Shown here: one piece after another, positions 4,021 through 61,052 of the stretch
Position numbering within the stretch: the stretch's first letter is position 1
Layout: each line of letters begins with the position of its first letter
DNA from: Lunularia cruciata
Taxonomy: Eukaryota; Streptophyta; Marchantiopsida; Lunulariales; Lunulariaceae
Direction of reading: 5' to 3'
NCBI GenBank assembly: GCA_948567375.1
Contig: OX419756.1
Location: 71,376,333-71,440,332, forward strand
DNA: 64,000 nt
Notes under the pieces: model-generated
Databases searched by the model: none
The model's input: only the letters and a program-made list of their open reading frames with translations
Told to the model about the DNA's origin: nothing
Position numbers and translations under genes: made by a program

Positions 4021-4138
4021 TAACAAAGACACCATCGAGGGAGTATGTTCATGTATGACTTATGTGTAAGTTGTGCTTCTATAGAGTAAGAGGTTGACAA
4101 TGATGTATGTTGTGTATTGATGTATATACTCATAACAT
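4021..4138 (+). mobile_element. LTR fragment related to the PHD-finger gypsy element
   Basis: The sequence from about 4,045 to 4,130 is the reverse complement of the repeated block at 57,640-57,803 and 58,258-58,365: the ATGTATGACTTATGTG word, the CTATAG word, then GACAATGATGTATGTTGTG. It is therefore an isolated fragment of the same LTR in the opposite orientation. No internal sequence is attached. Confidence 0.6.
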
Positions 4139-6608: not shown

Positions 6609-7437
6609 TAGGCACCGGCTACTTTCTCTACAGCAATGAAGTTTTGCCTAGGTTTGGTCCACCCATCTGCATCTTCACTACTCACTTGTGAGTGTGGTTC
6701 TACACTAGATGCAGCGGCGGTCCACATGACACGGTGTCCTTTTGGAGGACAGAGGATAGCTACCCATGATGCCATTAGAGACATAGTGTTTGCTATGGCA
6801 CGAGAGAGTGGATACTTGGCTTGGAGGGAGCGTTCGTATGCGTTGCAGACGACACGTGTCAGGGCAGACTTATACTTGGTCCGAGATGATCAGGTGACAG
6901 TAGCGGATGTCGTGGTGACGGACCCTACGCGAGATACAGTTTTGGAGGGAGTGATTACCCATCCCCCTGGATGGGCGGCGAGTGCAACAGCAGGTCGCAA
7001 GGTCTCCAAGTATAGGGGCATGCAGCAAGGTCACATCTTTGTTCCTCTAGCCTTGGAGTTATATGGAGCGATGGACACGACATTTGACACATTTGTCAGG
7101 GAGTGCGCGAGAGCTTATCATGTTAGGCGTCAGGGGGTACCACTCTCACTCTCATACTTTGTAGCTTACTTTAGACAGCGTGTATCCATTGCTCTACGGA
7201 GGGCAGTGGCTGGTGCAATCCATAGGAGAGCAATCACATTAGGTGATGTTTCTTCGGATGCTCCAGTTGTGTGTAGACCGTACGACTTGCATAGCTTGGA
7301 TATCTTAGGTGCGGTAGGGCAGATTTCTCATACAGACTCTATTGGGGCTTAGCCCCATGTTACCTTTTTTGTCTCTCCCTTGTATGGCTTGATGTGGTCT
7401 TCCCATCCTTCATTTTTCCTACGCGGTCTCCTTTTTC
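6609..7437 (+). mobile_element. 5'-truncated LINE insertion with 8-bp target duplication
   Basis: The segment interrupts the copia leader and is flanked by TTTCTTGA on both sides (6,601-6,608 and 7,438-7,445). It holds only the 3' part of the LINE: the coding end (6,636-7,352) and a tail of about 85 bp ending ...CTACGCGGTCTCCTTTTTC. There is no poly(A). The same tail recurs at 25,285-25,404 (+), 24,548-24,608 (-) and 35,031-35,140 (-). It is one of the few insertions here where the empty site is also visible. Confidence 0.85.
6636..7352 (+). CDS. LINE C-terminal fragment: zinc knuckle plus restriction-like endonuclease
   Basis: An open frame of 238 codons inside a truncated LINE. Residues 18-45 hold a CxC...H...C knuckle (CECG...HMTRC) and a following H. 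Then comes HDAIRD and, around residues 75-95, R-A-D-L...V-A-D-V-V-V, which fits the R(P)D...D pattern of the PD-(D/E)XK endonuclease placed after RT in R2-like LINEs. The remaining basic C-terminal region is conserved in the decayed copy at 1,453-2,069. The first Met is not a true start, because the frame enters from truncated sequence upstream. The element is dead on arrival: no RT and no promoter. Assignment to the restriction-like endonuclease class is by motif only. Confidence 0.65.
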   Translation: MKFCLGLVHPSASSLLTCECGSTLDAAAVHMTRCPFGGQRIATHDAIRDIVFAMARESGYLAWRERSYALQTTRVRADLYLVRDDQVTVADVVVTDPTRDTVLEGVITHPPGWAASATAGRKVSKYRGMQQGHIFVPLALELYGAMDTTFDTFVRECARAYHVRRQGVPLSLSYFVAYFRQRVSIALRRAVAGAIHRRAITLGDVSSDAPVVCRPYDLHSLDILGAVGQISHTDSIGA

Positions 7438-14129: not shown

Positions 14130-15396
14130 CCTTGATGGCTATCTGTGAATTTTAGAGGTGAGAAAGAGGTTCCCATGTGGCATCATGAAGGGGATACCCT
14201 TTCCAAAGGACCTTGTACTCCATATGTTGGCGACGGCCTCGTTGAATATGGCGACGCGCAAGGATACGATCAACTTTGTACTCCTCATGATCATTGATAG
14301 AGACATGAAGAGGGGGAGGTTGGACTCGAGAGGAAAAGGAAGAAGGGTTAGGAACAAAGGGTTTCAACTTGGAAACATGAAAGTCAGGATGGATACGCAG
14401 GTGACAAGGTAAGGCAAGTCAATAAGCAACAGGAGAGATGATGTGGGTGATATCAAAGGGTCCTATCCAATTAAGAGCAAGTTTACGAACTTGGGTATCA
14501 AGTGGGAGAGGGAGGTTACTAGAGGATAGCATGACTTTATCACCAACTTCAAAGGTGAGATCACGACGATGATGGTCCGCATATTGTTTTTGGCGATTCT
14601 GAGCAACAAGGAGGTGAGTTTTGGCTTGTTGGAGAGATTGGGATATAGTGGTCAAGAATGTAGAAGTATGAGGAACATGAGAGGGAGGGGGAGCAAGAAG
14701 AGAATCTAGAACAAGCGGATCTTGGCCAAAATTGAGAAAGAAGGGAGAAAATCCAGTGCTTGCCTGTTTAGAATTGTTGTAGGAAAATTCTGTAGCTGCA
14801 AGACATTCATCCCAGTTGGTATGGTGGACATTGACAAAGGCTTGCAACATATCCTCCAATGTACAATTAGCGTGTTCGGTTTGTCCATCAGTTTGAGGAT
14901 GATAGGCCGTGGACAAAGCAAGCTTGGTGCTGAGTATCTGGAAGAGTGCTTGCCAAAACTTCCTGATAAATCAAGGATCACGGTCGGAGATGAGTACACA
15001 TGGCATCCTATGATGCTTGAAGACATTGTCAAAGTAGATTTGTGCTAAGGTTGGAGCATCCACGGTATCACAGGTTGGTGCCAAGTGGATTTGCTTACTA
15101 AGCTTATCCACAAACACCACAATTGCGGTGTGTCCTTGTTTTGTCTTTGGCAAGGATGTGATGAGATCCAAGCTCACATGCTCCCAACGAGCGGATGGAA
15201 TGGCGAGTGGTTGAAGGAGTCCACTCGGCTTTTGGTTGTTGGCCTTGTTCTGTTGGCAACTCTCACATGATCGGACAAAGTCTTGAACATCTCGTGTCAT
15301 GTTGGGCCACCACCATTGGCGTTGGAGGGTGCCCAAGGTCTTGTCCACTCCCATGTGACCAGATATTGGTAAATCATGGGCTTCTTGAAGGCGCAT
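14130..15396 (-). pseudogene. Integrase and chromodomain of chromovirus A copy 1
   Basis: Integrase starts with the zinc-binding part (GHMG... and CESCQ, 15,396-15,250). The DDE core follows: Asp in SLDLITSLP, Asp in ISDRDP near 14,975, and Glu after the [11 protein letters not shown] block near 14,880. A basic region leads to a chromodomain (14,290-14,160: EEYKVDRILARR, YKVLWKGYP, TWEPLSHL), as in chromoviruses, where it directs integration to histone-marked chromatin. A frame break near 14,975 separates the zinc and core segments from the last catalytic part. A further break lies between 14,419 and 14,367. Inferred role: cDNA integration in the nucleus, now defective. Confidence 0.88.
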
Positions 15397-15399
15397 AAG

Positions 15400-17674
15400 T
15401 CAAAGATCACCTTTGGCTGGAACATAGATCTGGTCTTCATGGAATAAAAGGCCTTCCTTGAAGGAGAAGGTGTTGTACTCCTTGTCGCGTGCTATCAGAC
15501 GACCGTGTACCATTTGGAAGAAAGGATCTTGTTGTAGAGCTGATTGAAACTCATTATGGACCTTAGGGTCAATGGACACCGTTGTAATTGCCACCGTGAT
15601 GAGAGGAAGATCCTTCAAAATAGGTCGTTGTGATAGAGCATTAGGGATGACATGGAACCAACCTGGTTTGTACTCAAGTTTGATGTCAAACAATTGGAGT
15701 TGCTCTTCTTATCGATGATGCCGACTCTTCATGTGCTCCAAGTGTAAGGTCTGCAACAATGGTTTGTGATCAGTTTGCATGATCACTTGTTTCTCCAAGA
15801 GATAATGCCTCCATACTTTGGTGGCATATACCATTGCAAGTTGTTCCCGATCTCAAGCGGAGTAATTTTTTTCAGCTGTATTTTGTTGGCAAGACACAAA
15901 GGCAATAGGATGTAGTCCATTTGGAAATTCTTGTTGCAACACAGCTCCAATCGCAAAGTTAGAAGCATCAAAATCAACCACACAAGGTTGTTGAGGATCA
16001 TATGGTTGAAGAATGGGTCTTGAAGACACCATATGCTTTAACTTCTGGAATGCTTCTTCATGCTTGGTGGTCCACTTGAAGCTTGAGTTCTTTCCCAAGA
16101 GGTCAATCAATGGTGCAGCCACGTGAACATAATAGTGGATGAACCGTCGGTAAAAACTGGCCAATCCATTGAATGCTTGTACTTCTGTAGCATCCTTTGG
16201 GGTAGGCCAATAAAAAATGGCCTTGATCTTCTCTTCTTCCATCTTGATCCCCTCTGATGAGATCTTATGACCCAAGAAGGTAAACTCCTTCTGCCAAAAA
16301 GCACACTTTGACTTCTTGCAGTAGAAATTCCACTATCGTAGTCGTTTTAGGACCCTTGCACATGATTCACATGTTCTGCCTCTATCCTGCTATAGATTAG
16401 AATATCATCTAAGAACACCACCACGGACCAATCCAATAGTCCCTCCAACACTTGATGCATCTGATCCATGAAGACTGTTGGAGCATTAGTGAGTGCAAAA
16501 GGTAGAACTCTCCACTTGAAATGTCCATACCTTGTGCGAAAGGCAATCTTTTGCACATCCTCTCCTTCAATAGGAATTTGCCAATAGCCGCTATGAAGAT
16601 CCAACTTGGAAAAGTAGCGTGCTCTACTTAGTTGATCAAGCAGGTCATCGATCCGAGGCAAGGGATATGCATTCTTCACGGTTTGCTTATTGAGTCCACG
16701 GTAATCAATACAAAAATGAAGTCCTCCATCCTTCTTTGGAACAAATAGTACCGGTGCTCCCCAAGGAGAGGTACTATGTCGTATGAAATCCTTCTCCAAC
16801 AACTCTGTAAGTGTTGTTCGCAACTCCTCCAACTCCTTTGGTGAGAGCCAATAGATTGGTCTACTCACTGGAGTACTCCCTAGCAATAACTCGATCTTGA
16901 AGGGCATACCTTGATTGGAGGGTAATCCCTTTGGCAGATCATCCGGAAACACATCTGCAAACTCCTGAACTATCCGATCAACCATTGCTTGATGAGGCTC
17001 TTGGCCCTCCTCAGATTGTTCTTGTGCAATCAGCTTGACCCACACCGCAAATACAGACTTATCTTCCTCCAAAGCTTGCTCTATGGCCGCTTCATTAACA
17101 AACTTCCCTTCCAGGGACTCATCTCTCTTCCAAGCTTGTTCTATGGTTGCCTTCTTGGCAAACTCCCCATCTTGGGACTCATCTCCCTTCCAGATTCGCT
17201 CTATGGCTACCTTCTCGACAACTTCCCATCTTGGGACTGACTATTCTTAGGCGTCTTACTCAGAGGTGCCAGACAACCTAATCAGAAATTTCTAACTTGG
17301 TATTGTACTTGAATTTGTTGTTGGGTCCAATCAAATTGAACCTTATGACGTTCAAGCCAAGGTAGACCCAGAATGATATCATAGTGTAGAGGTGCCACTA
17401 CAAACCTCATACACTCCAAATACTCCTTCCCAATCTTGAAGGTAACAGGATGTGAGGTGCGGAATGCAGAACCCTTTCTACCATCCGCCATCATCAAACT
17501 ACTTCCAAACACTAGCTTGATAGGAATACCCAATTCCTTTGCTACTTGCATAGACATGCAATTTTCTGAACTTCTAGAATCAACCAAAATCCTACAACCC
17601 CGATTAGATATCGTACCTTGCAAGTGAAGCAAACTTGCATAGGTCAAGCCTTCAATCCCATTGGAACTAATCAA
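15400..17674 (-). pseudogene. Protease, reverse transcriptase and RNase H of chromovirus A copy 1
   Basis: The protease region (17,674-17,282) has VDSRSSEN where retroviral-type proteases need D-S/T-G, then a GLPWL block. RT (17,072-16,347) shows [12 protein letters not shown], the LPFALTNAP block and the catalytic FLDDILIYS. RNase H (16,275-15,770) shows VVDFDASN and IAFVSCQQN, and an MQTDHKPLLQTL-type block. A linker (15,693-15,400) leads to integrase. Breaks fall near 17,280, 16,345 and 15,850. The protease Gly-to-Arg change is shared with copy 2. Confidence 0.88.
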
Positions 17675-38614: not shown

Positions 38615-39037
38615 TTTAAAAGACCAAGACCAAGGAGAGAAATAAGAGAATGGAAACTCACATTGGGACACTTGAATGAGGGAAAACTCCAAATGCCTAG
38701 CATGACTTCGGCTTTGGTATTTATAGGTAGCATACAAGGCCCTTGAGAAGCTTTTCAAGAAGCTTCCTTGAGCCGCTTTCTTAAAGTGCAAGCCAAGTTA
38801 ACTAGGAAGCTTCTCAAGAAGCTTCCCTTTAGAAGCCACCTACTTGGCGTGCAAGCTTAGCTAGTTAGAAGTTCCATAAGCTTCCTTCTAGAAGCTATCT
38901 GCTTGGAGTGCAAGTTAACTAGTCGAGAAGTTTCCCAAGAAGCTTCCCATATGCTTTTGGAATATTCTAGGCTAATTTGGCTTATTCTCTACTTTGTTAG
39001 CCTTACTAACTACGTCGCTAAACTCCATACTCTTACA
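38615..39037 (-). repeat. Chromovirus A copy 2, 3' LTR
   Basis: 423 bp. It aligns throughout with the copy 1 LTR, and its first TG has become TT. The TATA box (TATAAATA, minus) is intact, while the four-unit heat-shock element is broken (GAAGTTCCATAAGCTTC). Confidence 0.88.
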
Positions 39038-40350
39038 TATTCCCCCACCGCTAGTTGGTGATGTCCTTGTCACCATTGAAGCTTTAAACTCCTGGATGGC
39101 CGTATGTGCATTTTGGAGGTGAGAAAGAGGTTCCCATGTGGCATCATGAAGGGGATACCCTTTCCAAAGGACCTTGTACTTTGGATGTTGATGGTGTCCT
39201 CGTTGGATGTGGCGATGTGCAAGGATACGATCAACTTTGTACTCCTCATGATCATTGATAAGGATAGAGGGAGGAGGAGGTTGGACTAAAGAGGAGAAAG
39301 AAGAGGGGTTAGGAAAAAAGTGTTTCAACTTGGAAATATGAAAGACAAGATAGATTCACATATGATAAGGCAAGGCAAGTCGATAGGCAACATGAGAGAC
39401 AATTGGGTGACATCAAAAGGTCCTATCCAATTAGAGGCAAGTTTACGAACTTGGGTATCAAGTGGGAGGGGTAGATTACTAGAGGATATCATAACTTTAT
39501 CACCAACTTCAAAGGTGAGATCACGACAACGGTGGTCCGCATATTGTTTTGGACAATTCTGAGCAACAAGGAGGTGAGATTTGGCTTGTTGGAGAGATTC
39601 GGATATGGTGGTCAAGAAGGTTGAAGTATGAGGGACTTGAGACTAAGGAGGAGCAAGAAGAGAATCTGGGACAAGCGGATCTTGGCCAAAATTGAGAAAG
39701 AAAGGAGAGAATCCGGTGCTTGCTTGTTTAGAATTGTTGTATGCAAACTCTGCAATTGCAAGATATTCATCCTAATTGGTATGGTGAATGTTGACAAAGG
39801 CACAAAGCATATCTTCCAAGGTGCGATTTGCACGTTCAGTTTGTCCGTCAGTTTGAGGATGATAGGCTATGGACAAAGCAAGCTTGATGCCAAGTATCTA
39901 GAAGAGTGCTTGCCAAAACTTTTCGGTGAAGCGAGGATCATAGTCAGAAATGAATACACGTGGCATCCCATGATGTTTGAATACATTATTGAAGTAGAGT
40001 TGCGCCAAGGTTGGAGCCTCCACAATATCAACTGTTGGTGCTAAATAGATTTGCTTACTAAGCTTATCCACAAACACCACAATTGCTGTGTGACCTTGTT
40101 GTGTCTTAGGCAAGGAGGTCATGAGATCTAAGCTCACATGTTCCTAATAAGTAGTTGGAATAGGAAGTGACTGAAAGAGTCCACTCGGCTTCTGGTTACT
40201 GGCCTTGTTGCGTTGACAACTCTCACATGATTGGAAAAACTCCCAAACATCTTGCGTCATGTTGGGCCACCACCATTGGCATTGGAGGGTACCCAAGGTC
40301 TTATCCATGTGACCAACTATTGGTAAATCATGGGCTTCTTGAAGGCGCAC
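38972..40350 (-). pseudogene. Integrase and chromodomain of chromovirus A copy 2
   Basis: The zinc-binding segment (EAHDLPIVGHM... CESCQ) covers 40,350-40,150. The core Asp (MSLDLMTSLPKTQQG) is near 40,130 and the second Asp block (ISDYDPRF) near 39,940. The rest of integrase extends to about 39,350 with breaks. The chromodomain (EEYKVDRILAHR, YKVLWKGYP, TWEPLSHLQ) covers 39,270-39,090. The final reading frame runs through the polypurine tract and stops inside the LTR near 38,972. Compared with copy 1 there are more breaks. Confidence 0.85.
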
Positions 40351-42538
40351 AAGTTAGAGATCATCTTTGGCTAGAACATAGATCCGGTCCGCATGGAATA
40401 AAAGGCCTTCCTTGAAGGAGAAGGTGTTATACTACTTGTTGCCTGTTGTCAAATGACCATGTACTATTTGAAAGAAAAGATCTTGTTGTAGAGTTGACCA
40501 AAACTTATTATGGACCTTGGGGTCAATTGACACCATTGTAATTGCAGCCATGATGAGAGGAAGAGACTTCAAATCAGGTCGTCATGATAGAGCATCAGGG
40601 ATGACATGGAACCAACCTAGTTTGTACTCAAGTTTGATGTCAAACAACTGGAGTTGCTATTCCCATCAATGATGTTGACTCTTCATGTGTTCCAAGTGTA
40701 AGGTCTGCAACAATGGCTTGTGATCAATTTGCATGACCACTTGTTTCCCCAAGAGGTAATGCCTCCATACCTTGGTGGCATATACCATTGCAAGTTGTTC
40801 TTGATCTCGAGCAGAGTAATTTCTTTCAGCTGTATTTAGTTGGCGAGACACAAAGGCAATGGGATGTAATCCATCTGGGAATTCTTGTTGCAGCACAACT
40901 CCAGTTGCAAAGTTAGAAGCATCAAAGTCAACCACACAAGGTAGTTGAGGATCATATGGTTGAAGAATGGGTCTTGAAGACACCATATGCTTTAACTTCT
41001 AGAATGCTTCTTCATGCTTGGTGGTCGATTGGAAACTCAAGTTCTTTCCCAAGAGGTCAGTCAATGGTGCAACTACATGAACATAATAATGGATGAACCG
41101 TTGGTAAATATTGGCCAATCCATTGAATGCTTGTACTTTTGTAGCATCCTCGGGGTAGGCCAATTAGTAATGGCCTTGATCTTCTCTTCTTCCATCTTGA
41201 TCCCCTTTGATGAGATCTTATGACCCAAGAAGGTAACCTCCTTCTACCAAAAGACACACTTTGACTTCTTGCAATAAAATTTCCATTGTCGTAGTCGTCT
41301 TAGGACTTCTTGCACATGATTCATGTGTTCTGCCTCTGTCTTGCTATAGATTAAGATATCATCCAAGAACACCACTACGGACCAATCCAATAGTCCTTCC
41401 AACACCCGATGCATCTGATCCATGAAGATTGCTAGAGCATTAGTGAGTCCAAAAGGTAGAACTCTCCACTCAAAATATCCATACCTTGTGCAAAAGGCAG
41501 TCTTTTGCACATCCTCTCTCTCAATAGGAATTTGCCAATAGCCGCTACAAAGATCCAGCTTGGAAAAGTAGCGTGCTCCACTTAGTTGATCAAGCAGGTT
41601 ATTGATCCGAGACAAGATATATGCATTCTTCACGGTTTGCTTATTGAGCCCACGGTAATCAATACAGTAACAAAGTCCTCCATCCTTCTTTGGAACAAAT
41701 AGTATCGGTGCTCCCCAAGGAGAGGTACTATGTTGTATGAAATCCTTCTTGAACAACTCTATAAGTGTTGTTTGCAACTCCTCTAACTTCTTTGGTGAGA
41801 GCCGATAGATTGGTCTACTCATTGGAGTACTCCTTAGCAATAACTCAATCTTGAAGGGCATACCTCAATTGGAGGGTAATCCCTTTGGCAGATCCTTGGG
41901 AAACACGTCCGCAAACTCTTGAACTATCCAATCAACCATTGCTTGATAAGGCTCTTAGCCCTCGGATTGTTCTTGTGCAATTGGCTTGATCACACCGCGA
42001 ATATAGACTTATCTTCCTCCAAGGCTTGCTCTATGGCTGCTTTACTAACAAAATTCCCTTCTAGGGACTTATCTCTCTTCCAAACTTGCTCCATGGTTGC
42101 CTCCTTGGCAAACTTCCCATCTTGGGACTCATCTCCCTTCCAAATTTGCTCTATGGCTACCTTCTCGACAAACTTCCAATCTTGGGATTGACTATTCTTA
42201 GGTGTCTTACTTGGAGGTGCCAAACAACCTAATCGGAATTTCTTACCTTGGTGTTGTACTTGAATTTCTTGTCGGGTCCAATCAAATTGAAGCTTATGAC
42301 GTTCAAGCCAAGGTAGACCCAAAATGATATCATAGTGTAGAGGTGCCACTACAAACCTCATACACTCCAAATGCTCCTTCTTAATCTTGAAGGTAACAGG
42401 ATGTGAGGTGCAGAATGCAGAACCCTTTCTACCATCCGCCATCATCAAACTACTTCCAAACACTAGCTTGAGAGAAATACCCAATTCCTTTGCTACTTGC
42501 ATGGATATGCAATTCTTTGAACTTCTAGAATCAACCAA
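40351..42538 (-). pseudogene. Protease, RT and RNase H of chromovirus A copy 2
   Basis: The protease region (42,538-41,990) again reads VDSRSSKN in place of the D-S/T-G motif and keeps GLPWLERHK. RT (41,861-41,244) has [20 protein letters not shown] and [15 protein letters not shown], with the catalytic Asp pair intact. RNase H is around 40,986-40,666 (VVDFDASNFATG, IAFVSRQLNTAERNYSA). Breaks separate the three parts. Confidence 0.85.
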
Positions 42539-49426: not shown

Positions 49427-51749
49427 CTATCGTGAGTTGGAGTTGGAGCCCGCTTTAGGATTTTCGACCTCTACTCTCTTCAATTCTTGATCAGCAGGCT
49501 TTTCATCGTAATAATCCTCAGGGTGGGGAGGAATGAGCCTTTTCCAGATCCAGTGATTGCGGAAAAGAGGTGCAATTTCCTCGATAGGCACTCCTTTGGT
49601 TTCGGGCATGAGGAGACCAACGAAGACTGTCATGAAAAATACCCAGCCGGCGAAGAAAAGGAAGATGCCATACTCGAATACACAAAGCATGGTCAGTAAG
49701 GATTGTCCTATGGCGAAAGTGAAGACGAGATTGGTAGCAATAGCCAAACTCTGTCCAGCTGATCGAACTTCCATCGGAAAAATTTCGCTTGGGATAAGCC
49801 AAAGTATGGGTCCCCAAGACCAAGCAAAAGCAGACACGAACACACAGACAAGAACCACTATGAGAATGCCAAGCCCCTTGGAAAGATCATTATGCTGTCC
49901 AAGATTATACCTCAGTATAACTCCGACGAGAACCTGCACATGTCCAACTAATGCTCAGGATTTTCATAGGGACATTAACATACTCTCCACGAACATAGAT
50001 GTAAAATTTAGTACTTGGAATCAAATATGTCTGTTCCAAACAAGGGCATACCAGTGTTGGCCTACATGGCCTAGTGTAAAAACGGGATAGGGGTAATAAA
50101 AAATTGAGAGATGACGAGGATTTGGCTCATCAGCCTACTCTTTTTTCCTCTTTGAAATATGACACTCAAGAAATCACTGCTGAGAAACTGTCCATTACAA
50201 AGTTTGCCAAGAAACTTACCAGACTTATGAACATTTGACATCCGGCTTGATAAACGAGAATCTTCCGGCCCCACCTGTCAACCACACCGATAGCTACAAG
50301 AGTGGACAACAGATTGACTCCGCCTACTATGACAGCAGAGTAGAGAGAGGCATCGCTTGCGAAGCCGATGGTCTTGAAGAGGACTGGAGCGTAGAACATG
50401 ATAGCGTTGATGCCGGTCATCTGGTTTAGGAACGGAATCATCGTTCCAATGATTAGCTGCGGTCGGTAACGCCTCTGCATCAGATTCTTCCACGGGTGCT
50501 TAACTGAATTAGCAATCCTGCTTGCTTCTACCATGTCATTAAACTCCTCTTCCACATTCGATGTTCCACGAATTTTCACCAGCGTTGCTCTGCCTTGCTC
50601 CATTTTTCCCCTTTCAATCAAACTGTTGGGGGTCTCTGGTAGAAACAGGCCCCCAATGGTGACAATTGCACCGGGAACAGCAGCAAGGCCCAGCGACAGT
50701 CGCCATCCCCATGGTTCAAGCTTTCCTGTTCCATAGTTCAGCAGATTCGCACACAGGATTCCAAAAGTGATGACAAGCTGAAACATTATGTTCAAAGCTC
50801 CCCTTAAATGAGATGGAGAAATCTCCGACAGATACAAAGGTACAGCCTGATGTTGTCAAACCACACAGCTAGTCAGGAAAGAAGCACAACAGTGAGAGAA
50901 ATACGAGGGTTTCATTAACATCATCCAGGTACAGATTCCTTATGATTTATATGCATGAGAGACTCAATGAATATGGTTCTAAGAGATTCAGATTTCGTTC
51001 ATTCCCCTGCGAACTCTACGCCAGAGTTGCTATTCATATTTTCAAAATGTGCCCAGAAAATACCTGGCAGGCGAACCCGATACCGGCACCAAGCAAAATA
51101 CGCCCGATAATGAGCATACCCAGGTTGACAGCAGCTGCATTGAGAATTGCTCCGGCAAGGAAGATGACGCCGCCAATGAGAATTGATGGTTGCCTTCCGT
51201 AATTGCGAGTGGTATATGAAGCCATGAGCGATGCGATCATGCCCGCCAGGTACAGAGAGGAGGTGAAAGCTTGAAGTCCCTGGTTATCGTATTCACAGTA
51301 ATTGCTCTTCTTATTGTCCTTATTCCTGTACACTACAGGGAAAAACTCCTCCAGAAACATGTCCATGGATGTGACTCCACCTGCAAGCAAGGAGTTTGTT
51401 AGACATTGACCGCAATATAACGGCTGGCAGTGCAAATTCAGGTCACTTTGGGAAGAAGGTAGAACTGGTTCATGGAAAACGAGAAGGTTCTTCCCAAAGA
51501 ATTTAAACTGTATTACACAATCCCAGTGACCAAAATATTCCTGCTGCACTCTTCGGAAATGGAAATGCGGCAATTGAATGACAAATACAACGATTCCACG
51601 TAAGAAAACCCACCTGATATGCCAATATCGTAGCCAAACATAAGACCACCAAAGGCGGCCATGATGCAAGCCAGGATGACATAAAGAGTTGTGTGGCCTT
51701 CATAGTTTTTCCCAGCTCCGGCTGTGCTCACAAATCCTCCTCCGGCCAT
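49427..51749 (-). CDS. STP: Sugar transport protein (STP-type hexose/H+ symporter)
   Basis: Four exons join in phase: 51,749-51,614, 51,380-51,064, 50,846-50,220 and 49,933-49,427 (stop TAG), all GT-AG, giving 528 residues, the usual STP length. Start MAGGGFVSTAGAG. The N-terminal helix and loop GGLMFGYDIGISGGVTSMD span the exon 1-2 junction, followed by the STP-type extracellular loop (EYDNQGLQAFTSSLYLAG), RNYGRQPSILIGG, GRILLGAGIGFACQAVPLYL with SEISPSHLRG, then LPETPNSLIERG, PFLNQMTGINAIMFYAPVLF, DRWGRKIL, PSEIFPMEVRSAGQ and PETKGVPIEEI. Twelve membrane helices are expected, with both termini cytosolic. Role: proton-coupled uptake of monosaccharides across the plasma membrane. Every family signature is intact. 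Confidence 0.96.
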
Positions 51750-57639: not shown

Positions 57640-58365
57640 GTGCTTATATATATCAATACACAACATACATTGTTGTCAACAACATACACTATAGAAGTTG
57701 TTGTGCTTATATACATCGCTACACAACATACATCACTGTCAACATCATACACTATAGAAGCACAACTCACACATAAGTCATACATAGACTCTAAAGTGCC
57801 ACAATAATTAGATTGCTTACCACTCTCAACTCAACTCAACTCAACTCAGATCAGTACTTGATCTGTCACTCTATAAACTTCCAACAACTGGGCACTAATT
57901 ACAGTCAAGCCACACCCACTCAAGCATAGAGAATCTAGGTGACACTCGCCGGCCTCTGTCCACCATAGCCAGGAACTCAAAGGCTCAACATCAGAGAAGT
58001 GAGCTCTCTTGAGCTCACTTCAAAACTATACCCCTTGGACTCAAGCTAGCTCTAAAACCCTAACGGTCCCGCTGACGGAACACTTGACGGTGCAAACGGT
58101 GCAAAGTGACGGTGGGCCTTACCATGAAGTCAGTACCCCAAACACGAAATCTGACCATCGGAAAGTAATCTCTGAGAAACTGCTGAAATAACTCTAGCTA
58201 CTATTACTGGAACTCTAGTGTTTGAGCATCCAGATGTGGCACTACAAATGGCGTGATAGTTGTCGTGCGTATATACATTGCCACACAACATACATCGTTG
58301 TCAACATCATACACTATAGAAGCACAACTCACACATAAGTCATACATAGACTCTAAAGTGTCACA
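57640..58365 (-). mobile_element. 3' LTR region of the PHD-finger gypsy element, with internal repeats
   Basis: On the minus strand TGTGACACTTTAGAGTC begins at 58,365, directly after the polypurine tract AGGGGGGCGAT, so 58,365 is the LTR start. The first 107 bp (58,365-58,258) recur at 57,803-57,697, ending at the same point with TGTGGCAC. A third partial unit sits at 57,640-57,700. A (CTCAA)n tract lies at 57,824-57,848. The left end is not defined. A fragment of this LTR is also at 4,045-4,130. Confidence 0.6.
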
Positions 58366-58379
58366 ATCGCCCCCCTAGC
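58366..58379 (-). other. Polypurine tract of the PHD-finger gypsy element
   Basis: On the minus strand GCTAGGGGGGCGAT immediately precedes the LTR start TGTGACAC. This is a typical plus-strand priming site and fixes the element orientation. Confidence 0.75.
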
Positions 58380-58540: not shown

Positions 58541-60327
58541 ACATCTAGGACATAACCACTATCCCTGAGGAACCACCATGAGGGGAGGAGTCATACATGC
58601 CATATGCCATCCTCTTGAACAACTATCACACACTAATATAGTAGCAGCTCTACCAGAAGAGCCACATAACATACACCTCAAGCCTGTACGTACAAGTGCC
58701 AAGCTTGGGTCCATAGTACCATCAATGTTTGGGAGGTGGCATGGCACACAATTGCGCACATGATCCTTCCAAACAACACCATCACGTCCTTCTAACACAA
58801 GGACTCCATATGGCAAAACCTCGTGCACTCTCAAGATAGTGCGGCCTGTAGAAACATCAAGTGTTGTCGGTGCTATCTGTTGTAGATATACATAGTCACC
58901 TGGATGAAATTGACGGATCGAGGGTCTATAACCTCCTCCTTGAATGGTAGCATAGCGTAAAGTATCTCTATGTTGAGCAATCGCCAAGTTCTCAAAGGCC
59001 ATCGGCATCACTCTCCGAAAGATCTCTGCCCATTGAGAACATGCGCTCATCCATACATTGGGGTCATCCAAGTCCAAAACTACAATAGCATCTCAACGAA
59101 TGGCTCCATGTAAATCTGGATCTTGTCTATAGAGTAGAAAGTATGGAGAGAAGGATGCTAAGGAGGCTTGCCGGCTGAACCGATAGCCCATGGCCAACCA
59201 AGGTAATTAGAGATCCCAATCTCCCAAGTGGCCTCTCTGCAAACCATACTTTTGCAATCCTCTCTTCACCGTCTAAACCACTCTCTCTGCTAAGCCATCT
59301 GCCTTAGGGTGATCTCGGGATGTAGTACAATGATCAATCAAGGCCTTGTCACACAAGACCTGAAACTCCCCCAAGAACTTTGTACCCTAATCAGTCAAAA
59401 CCTCAGCTTGTGCACCAAAATGACTAAGAACTTGATCTAGGAACAAGTAAGCTGTCCCTTCACAAGACTTGTCAAGAAGTGCCACCAACTCAATCCACTT
59501 GGAGAAGTGATCCCCCATCACCAAAACATACCGATGATGTCTCACAGTCAGTGGTAAAGGTCCGGCAAAGTCCAAACTCCAATGGTAACCCAATCCCATG
59601 ATAGGTAATGGGTGTAATTGTAGCATAGGAGCATTGAATAATGCTCTAACTCGGTCACAAACCACACATCTAGTAACAAACTACTGTACCTTGGTCTGCA
59701 TACCGCGCCACCAATAATGACTCTGGAGTAAGCTATACGTACGCTTTACTCCAAAATGTCCTAGCTCCTCATGAGCATGACGGACCAACTGTGGTCTCTA
59801 AGATGGAAGTGGTACTACTCGCACTCTACCATCCTCCCATACACACAAAAGGTGTCTACCCTCCAATCTGAACCGTCTGGCTTGCTGAAGAACATGGTCT
59901 CTCTCCTTGGCCCCAATTGTGCCACCCACAACACCAATGCAAAGATAGTCCATCACTAAGGCATCATCATGAATGTCTGGCTGAACTATATCAATATCTT
60001 CACTCTTTGGATCTGTGACCTCAATAACTCCTCCTGTATGCACTGAGAGAGATACCACTAAAGCCTCTACAAATATACACAAAAGGCCGATGCATGCCAA
60101 CCTAGCACCATCTCCTCATTTGTCTCACCATGCCAATGTGCTCCGGTCTGATCCTACTGGCTGGGACATGGGTTTCTACTCAACCCATCTGCATAACGGT
60201 CTATGAATAACCAAAAAATCATACTGTTGTAAAATCAGAGCCCATCATGCAAGCTTCCCTGAAAGCTTGTCGGACTCCATCAACCACTTCAGTGGCTGAT
60301 GATCAATGATGAGAGTGAAGGGGTTAC
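58541..60327 (-). pseudogene. Ty3/gypsy RNase H end, integrase and C-terminal PHD finger
   Basis: On the minus strand, the end of RNase H (60,327-60,180: QPLKWLMESDKLSGKLA) leads through a linker (60,100-59,798) to the integrase zinc module (H...H in HAHEELGHFG near 59,770 and CVVCDRVRA near 59,650). The catalytic core follows: LDFAGPL at about 59,570, then VLTD at about 59,390, then the Glu block DHPKADGLAERV near 59,290. A GPY/F-like segment (YRPSIRQFHPGDYVYL) lies near 58,915. The C-terminus (58,675-58,541) is a C4HC3 PHD finger: CMLC, CDSCSRGWH, AC, a TPPL..VPQG stretch and, after an in-frame TAG, W-L-C-P-R-C. Other stops are at about 59,270, 59,205 and 59,095. The RT, protease and gag parts are cut off by the family B insertion at 60,328. 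Confidence 0.82.
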
Positions 60328-61052
60328 TATAATACCAAGGGTTAGCCATATGATCTAGATGTGAAATTTGGTTTGGTAACTTCTAGAATGATTTTATACA
60401 TGATGGTCAAAATAGATCAGATAGAAGTATCACCAAAAGAATACTTCTATTAATAGGGCAGAAATCGAAGTAGACTTGAGAACCTTAGAACCAGTAGCTA
60501 GACATATGATTTAAAGGTGAGAATTGGTTTGGTAACATCTGGAAGGATGTTACACATGATGGACTAAATAGAAAGAGGTATCACCAAAAGGGGACTTTTA
60601 CTAATAGAGTAGGAACCAAAATATGCCTGAAATCTTTAAAGGCAATTTTGGAGGCCTAAACAGATGAATTAGGCCTCAAAAATGTGCAAATTCCCCCCTC
60701 CCCAATGGAGGAAAGGTTGGCCTTCCCTCCCCCCTGCTTTGTCTTGTCAAGAGCTTTCCAATGGTACCTTACTCACGTGATTCTGAGATTCCTACACAAA
60801 GATTCCCTTCGGTCAAAGCTTGTTTGACCAACCAGATAGGACCTAGACCAGACAGGTCACCCACCCAAGTAAGTAATCCAAGGGTGGAGCTTGCTGACAT
60901 GTCACCTATCTTTGTCCCTAATCCTATGGTGGAACTTCCTTGGAGGAGATCCTCTTTGTCTATATAATAAAGAGAAGGTGCTCCCTTGGGGCATCGAATG
61001 TTTGAGTGTGCAATCTGTGTTTTCTCTCTTCTCTTGTCCTCGGAGTATTACA
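60328..61052 (+). repeat. 5' LTR of the family B element
   Basis: Ends CGGAGTATTACA. It shares with the solo LTR the two-unit U3 repeat (about 60,345-60,640), the GGTTGGCCTTCC...CCCC segment near 60,710 and the TTTGGTC...TTGACCAACCAGATAGGA-like segment. The TATA box lies near the U3/R border. Confidence 0.85.
60961..60968 (+). promoter_or_regulatory. TATA box of the family B LTR
   Basis: TATATAATAAAG at 60,961, about 90 bp before the LTR end and after the U3 repeats. The solo LTR has a weaker CTATATGATACA at the same place. Confidence 0.6.

Follow-up and report, generated by a model that had tools for sequence, protein, structure and literature searches.

An abundant Ty3/gypsy-type retrotransposon family of Lunularia cruciata with a PHD finger at the integrase end and a Dnmt3-type methyltransferase-like domain in ORF1

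Chromodomains are the best-known putative means of chromatin guidance of integration in plant retrotransposons, and the locus described here raises the question of whether a retrotransposon family of Lunularia cruciata carries a PHD finger in their place and, if so, what such a finger might do. The window, by which we mean the whole stretch of 64,000 nucleotides that was analysed (contig OX419756.1, positions 71,376,333 to 71,440,332), holds the remains of one such element. It was here that the original prediction, made from the letters of the window, placed a PHD finger broken by one TAG codon in a frame that continues from an integrase. The features on which our argument draws, all on the minus strand, are as follows.

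58541..58675 (-): PHD finger of the C4HC3 type at the integrase C-terminus (PF00628), with a TAG at 58559-58561; its 135-base span is that of the other copies
58559..59077 (-): longest open piece, coding for the integrase C-terminal domain and the first 33 of 47 PHD positions (ORF, PF00628)
58676..59800 (-; upper limit approximate): decayed integrase with H2C2 zinc, DDE core and a C-terminal domain without GPY/F (tblastn; Pfam on a sister copy)
59801..60337 (-; lower limit approximate): end of RNase H and a linker, where the family match stops (tblastn)
58368..58376 (-): G-rich run AGGGGGGCG (coding strand), directly upstream of B1 and polypurine-tract-like
58261..58367 (-): repeat B1, 107 bp (blastn 95.3%)
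57805..58256 (-): repeat A2, 448 bp in sister copies (blastn 89.4%)
57699..57805 (-): repeat B2, 107 bp, the 3' end of the element (blastn 96.3%)
14155..14418 (-): chromodomain of another Ty3/gypsy element (PF00385, E=5e-11)

The C4HC3 motif lies exactly at 58541-58675(-), and the call of a PHD finger at this position proved correct: with an X at the single TAG, the exact window letters match all 47 positions of PF00628 (E=1.9e-11), and the open piece 58559-59077, taken by itself, also passed the profile check that had been proposed, with E=3.4e-7 and a score of 30.6 bits where the cut-off is 24. The TAG is at a Q-to-stop site where a stop is also found in 12 of 80 other copies. The finger is in frame with the integrase, residues 433-1037 of a sister pol corresponding to window 60337-58538 in one tblastn match at 82% identity. 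The integrase had been described as complete and of the GPY/F type, and neither description held: the window copy has 11 stops in the 600 codons read, and no GP[YF] occurs after residue 600 of the one sister pol searched. A 115-residue integrase C-terminal piece from another copy matched no Pfam family at E≤1, and an AlphaFold prediction for the open piece in the window had a mean pLDDT of 33. The window copy of the PHD-integrase family is dead. It is what remains of the 3' part of a member of an abundant family of Ty3/gypsy-type retrotransposons; the match to this family ends inside RNase H, with RT and ORF1 missing and no ORF1 or methyltransferase part found within the window (tblastn, 1e-3); the 3' end of the element is kept as B1, A2 and B2 at 57699-58367. 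The truncation of this copy put the methyltransferase and the conserved TAG described below out of reach of the original prediction. Elsewhere in the window, fragments of the 107-bp B repeat lie outside the main copy at 4051-4132(+) and 57640-57697(-) (blastn) and may have been left behind by further insertions or by duplication nearby. The sole clear host gene noticed, a sugar transporter, is present in pieces (49427-51669(-), PF00083), an open frame at 6636-7352(+) is LINE-like by eye and has no Pfam match at 0.01, and Rfam and tRNA scans of the window returned nothing.

The coding layout of the family is visible in more complete copies. In one of these, L009, a pol frame of 1037 codons contains RVT_1, RNase H, Integrase_H2C2, rve and PHD in this order (Pfam), and the PHD (E about 1e-11) ends one residue before the pol stop. 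The family RT has the Ty3-G pol as its best solved relative (E=8.6e-84), and a Ty3-type RT together with the RT-RNase H-integrase order is a feature of Ty3/gypsy membership. Following the integrase, Pfam finds the PHD only and no chromodomain, which bears out the proposal that the finger is a C-terminal extension at the place where chromoviruses carry their chromodomain. A DDE integrase is present, and in five pol and ORF1 pieces no Pfam match to a tyrosine recombinase was obtained at E≤0.1. Pol is preceded by ORF1, which has 1428 codons in the longest frame read and includes a CCHC zinc knuckle at 443, a knuckle-like motif at 412, a Gag-like part that stays below the Pfam cut-off (0.07), and a protease-like motif, LLDSG, at 762, on which the protease call is based. 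From about position 1000, the cytosine methyltransferase motifs LELFGG, WPCQ, LLENV and RLRLWW follow one another in order, the Pfam family DNA_methylase (PF00145) is matched above its cut-off (E=2.2e-8), and the nearest solved structure is DNMT3A (E=1.5e-11); by these resemblances the domain is Dnmt3-type cytosine methyltransferase-like. ORF1 and pol share one frame and are split by a TAG, which stands in the context TAG-CAG-YYA in 17 of 17 readable copies, from a sample of 20 stretches of which 2 were not the PHD-integrase element and 1 was unaligned. A UAG followed by CAR-YYA is the leaky read-through context of the TMV type, and since this context is kept in all 17 copies, pol is likely made by read-through of the TAG.

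Searches of the genome (565.8 Mb) show how consistently finger, integrase and methyltransferase occur together. A search with the integrase C-terminal piece of the window copy accepted all 150 matches scored, out of 9366 loose first-look candidates, and a search with PF00628 scored 150 out of 5914 candidates, all above the cut-off and each with a match that spans the whole profile. When 20 of the PF00628 places were taken as ten-kb stretches, 18 were the PHD-integrase element, and the other 2 (L017 and L020) look like host genes. The original prediction had also proposed that the finger be followed through the family. From the 150 integrase matches, 80 copies, taken in list order or in steps with earlier-sampled copies skipped, were read downstream; every one of them has the PHD region, with an alignment that covers no less than 98.7% of it, and it is free of indels, stops and ligand changes in 52, with a stop in 19 and an indel in 4. 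A PF00145 search scored 123 of 2161 candidates, all above the cut-off and mostly the element's own profile stretch, and 20 places were taken from it at list steps, avoiding places known to be near listed PHD or integrase matches. A PHD was found within the predicted 341 bases in 18 of these places, with nothing in L121 and L133, and from its presence at the predicted distance it follows that the methyltransferase and the finger are parts of one element. The idea that the window copy had captured a host PHD gene on its own, or that the motif arose by chance, is ruled out by the presence of the finger in 80/80 and 18/20 sampled copies and by E-values of 1e-11, and we consider either origin vanishingly improbable. 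No relatives were confirmed among the virus and prokaryote contig collections.

The window also bears out the claim that a chromodomain element of the Ty3/gypsy type coexists with the PHD family, as PF00385 is matched at 14155-14418(-). This chromodomain belongs to one of two such copies, at 14155-17674(-) and about 39000-42538(-), the chromodomain of the second being recognized by eye. Chromodomain matches are abundant in the genome: all 150 scored are above the cut-off, of 13448 candidates, which are not necessarily all retroelements. Among the matches listed, integrase copies are spread unevenly along the contigs (p=0.0035, n=148), chromodomain matches show no departure from a uniform spread (p=0.86, n=89), and a comparison of the two on four contigs gave no difference (p=0.25); there is no clear pattern in contig positions between integrase and chromodomain copies.

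If the finger docks the integrase, the identity of its ligand becomes central. The original prediction had it read H3K4me3 or unmodified H3, and as an ordinary reader of this kind it would steer integration by that mark. The solved PHDs closest in sequence are those of CHD4, KMT2C/D, PHF12, DPF3, KAT6A, KDM5A/B, PHF21A and ATXR5, and several of the KDM5A/B, DPF3, KAT6A, PHF21A, ATXR5 and CHD4 fingers are unmodified-H3 readers; in addition, the finger of the copy read retains a P-x-G-x-W stretch. The residues on which H3K4 reading would depend, however, are replaced. At the position of the Trp of methyl-K4 readers, which we take to be two residues before the zinc His, the family finger has Gly and no other residue in 80 copies, and the acidic-wall positions, five to six before the third Cys, are Ala-Ala, a single copy among the 80 having an Asp at one of the two (by a hand alignment of the finger to BAZ2A). 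With 4 Arg, no Lys and 1 Asp in 52 residues, the finger is net basic. Two PHD fingers outside the element, L001 (C12:37415697) and L005 (C7:17786290, resembling the ATXR5/6 type by eye), apparently sit in host genes, and these do have acidic loop residues. In the available portion of PMC5415848, the acidic-wall residue is described as largely mutually exclusive with the conserved Trp of methyl-K4 readers, and neutralization of the double acidic patch of BAZ2A reduced H3 binding 17-fold. H3K4 reading by the family finger is thus not supported by its residues, and we regard an H3K4 reader, of either state, as quite unlikely.

A different precedent is offered by the PHD of BAZ1A, which according to the portion of PMC5636791 available to us has neither feature, failed to bind any histone peptide in an array experiment, and is a DNA binder. 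Because both H3K4 determinants are missing, the finger is net basic, and BAZ1A-PHD provides this precedent, a tether to the nucleosome or to DNA appears likelier than an H3K4 reader. Taken strictly, the analogy would have the finger bind DNA as BAZ1A does and hold cDNA ends or target DNA, not a histone mark; the family finger lacks the same determinants as BAZ1A-PHD and is net basic, but it contains no Lys, and we treat this version as a somewhat doubtful possibility.

In a further reading the finger is a passenger, acquired once, spread from a few source copies and now functionless. Selection was assessed in 14-18 copies per domain, and in 41 for the PHD, after exclusion of CpG/CHG-type changes and of variants shared by exactly two copies. 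We used these filtered counts because the unfiltered ones, in which the contrast between shared and singleton variants gave p=0.003 for RNase H, p=0.067 for the DNMT, p=0.49 for the PHD and p=1 for the integrase core, are confounded by recurrent C-to-T changes. The filtered ratio of synonymous to nonsynonymous variants was 42:5 overall for variants in at least three copies versus 126:291 for singletons (p=2e-15), and 13:1 versus 26:67 for the methyltransferase alone (p=4.7e-6), which shows that the methyltransferase is under purifying selection. The PHD, being short and uniform, gave 1:1 among shared filtered variants in its 41 copies, and in the 80-copy set the sole variant left by the filter that occurred in as many as three copies was a stop. 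Variation of the finger at the level of lineages is therefore too small to reveal selection, as a passenger would allow, and depletion of changes at the zinc ligands is modest when stops are excluded (6 of 96 amino-acid changes on 8 of 52 positions, p=0.010, with codons treated alike; p=0.001 across the 80 copies when stops are counted as changes). The depletion nevertheless exists; the most diverged copies read, L019 and L028 (91-92% to L013), hold all eight ligands, and the whole-profile PF00628 match in every one of the 150 scored places likewise speaks against loss of function. We judge a passenger rather unlikely.

The ends of the element are organized in a manner not expected of a plain LTR retrotransposon. 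The integrated order is A1 (448 bp), ORF1 and pol, B1 (107 bp), GC, A2 and B2, an arrangement of DIRS-like split direct repeats, and two plain LTRs, which had been sought in the ten-kb stretches, were ruled out by it. The A repeat is found in 10 of 12 5' pieces (absent from L010 and L014) and in L026, and B in none of the 12. The element begins and ends with TGTC...GACA, and 4-bp target duplications, read by eye, are perfect in all 7 copies with both ends intact; L025, an eighth copy with both ends read, has an altered B2 end and was unscored for duplication. Such TG...CA ends with a short target duplication are the integrase-end feature of Ty3/gypsy elements. Of 17 copies, 16 have the G-rich run immediately preceding B1, in some of them with changes, and L025 lacks it. 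A2 and B2 join exactly in 8 of 11 copies and with 1-2 extra bases in the other 3. A1 and A2 differ by 0.7-5.4% in 10 copies, with 105 transitions versus 8 transversions, an excess that fits methylated-cytosine decay. In 11 of 13 5' pieces (e.g., L029) the A1 end lies within a short palindrome, TCTGAT-TAC-ATCAGA or a sequence close to it, no tRNA primer site was recognized by eye at the joint of A1 and the internal part, and a short exact tandem array with 8-bp steps lies near an element copy in L022 (8171-8442). DIRS/PAT-like retrotransposons have the same split direct repeats, A1-B1-A2-B2, along with a tyrosine recombinase and no target duplication, whereas the family has a DDE integrase, TG...CA ends and 4-bp duplications.

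The anatomy of these junctions suggests how the two sets of features might be reconciled. Reverse transcription, primed for the plus strand at the G-run, would produce ordinary LTRs built as B-GC-A, and a circle with two LTRs would carry B1-A2-B2-A1; cutting by the integrase at the B-GC-A palindrome inside the LTR would then yield the integrated split-repeat order. Small variation at the A2/B2 joint would be accounted for because this joint would be the circle joint. That the family represents a lineage with both a methylation writer and an integrase docking finger, whose DDE integrase acts on a palindrome within an LTR of a circle with two LTRs and thereby gives a circularly permuted integrated form, A1-ORFs-B1-A2-B2 with 4-bp duplications, is a tentative proposal that we hold to be less likely than not. 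The repeat structure may explain how a DDE integrase goes together with split repeats. If the proposal is true, a circularly permuted element would unite DIRS-like repeats with gypsy-type integration, and an element with writer and finger would be self-sufficient both in selecting its insertion site and in marking it afterwards.

Chromoviruses, including the element at 14155-17674 in the window, likewise have a putative chromatin-binding domain after the integrase; the family differs in having a PHD for the chromodomain, a methyltransferase in ORF1, split direct repeats, and no GPY/F found, and in spite of the similar layout it is not a chromovirus because the chromodomain is absent. The nearest published relative, by its description in the portion of the paper available, is KnitGypsy-Dnmt3 of Klebsormidium nitens (de Mendoza et al. 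2018, PMC5890265), which has Gypsy domains, a Dnmt3-type methyltransferase, DIRS-like repeats, and a methyltransferase under purifying selection in common with the family; the same source describes its methyltransferase as without rearrangement and its repeat structure as equal to that of a DIRS retrotransposon. In KnitGypsy-Dnmt3, however, the Dnmt3 is placed in the Pol ORF and copies are fewer than in Symbiodinium, as far as this portion of PMC5890265 goes, whereas the family has its methyltransferase in ORF1 before a conserved TAG, has thousands of candidates, and has a PHD, which is mentioned 0 times in the main text of PMC5890265. In the literature found, as far as it was available, Dnmt3-bearing gypsy elements are described only from this charophyte; Copia and DIRS families in streptophytes and dinoflagellates are the subject of a 2025 paper (PMC12344493, available in part). 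Chronos of oomycetes, in the part of PMC5348765 available, is also a Ty3/gypsy lineage with an independently captured chromatin-binding domain, but this is a chromodomain and not a PHD, a term with 0 mentions there. Ginger1-9_HM of Hydra encodes a transposase that resembles gypsy integrases and carries Ulp1 and PHD domains at its C-terminus, but it is a DNA transposon for which the available portion of PMC2836005 lists no reverse transcriptase or methyltransferase. Within the portions of the open-licence literature available, no PHD on a Ty3/gypsy integrase was found: "PHD" has 0 occurrences in the main text of the plant LTR surveys PMC6317226 and PMC3350952, and it appears in other settings in PMC3286476, PMC7602945 and PMC10799480.

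In summary, we favor, at a probability of roughly 0.6, the reading that this is an abundant Ty3/gypsy-type family in which a Dnmt3-type methyltransferase in ORF1 and a PHD finger at the integrase end would serve as DNA methylator and chromatin tether, respectively. The finger would tether the integrase complex to nucleosomes or target DNA, replacing the chromodomain and probably not acting via the known H3K4 pockets, and the methyltransferase would methylate the element cDNA or the insertion site, such that a new copy would land in, or become, chromatin that the host does not treat as foreign. The same reading takes integration to proceed through the proposed two-LTR circle outlined above. The element may in this way engage host chromatin in two roles, reader and writer, and by description its combination of a PHD and a Dnmt3-type enzyme appears to be a variant beyond the published Dnmt3-bearing gypsy elements. 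With candidate copies in the thousands, it could be possible to measure what the family does to the host methylome, and a successful PHD family with a Dnmt3-type enzyme beside chromodomain elements in one genome is a natural pair for testing the roles of these domains.
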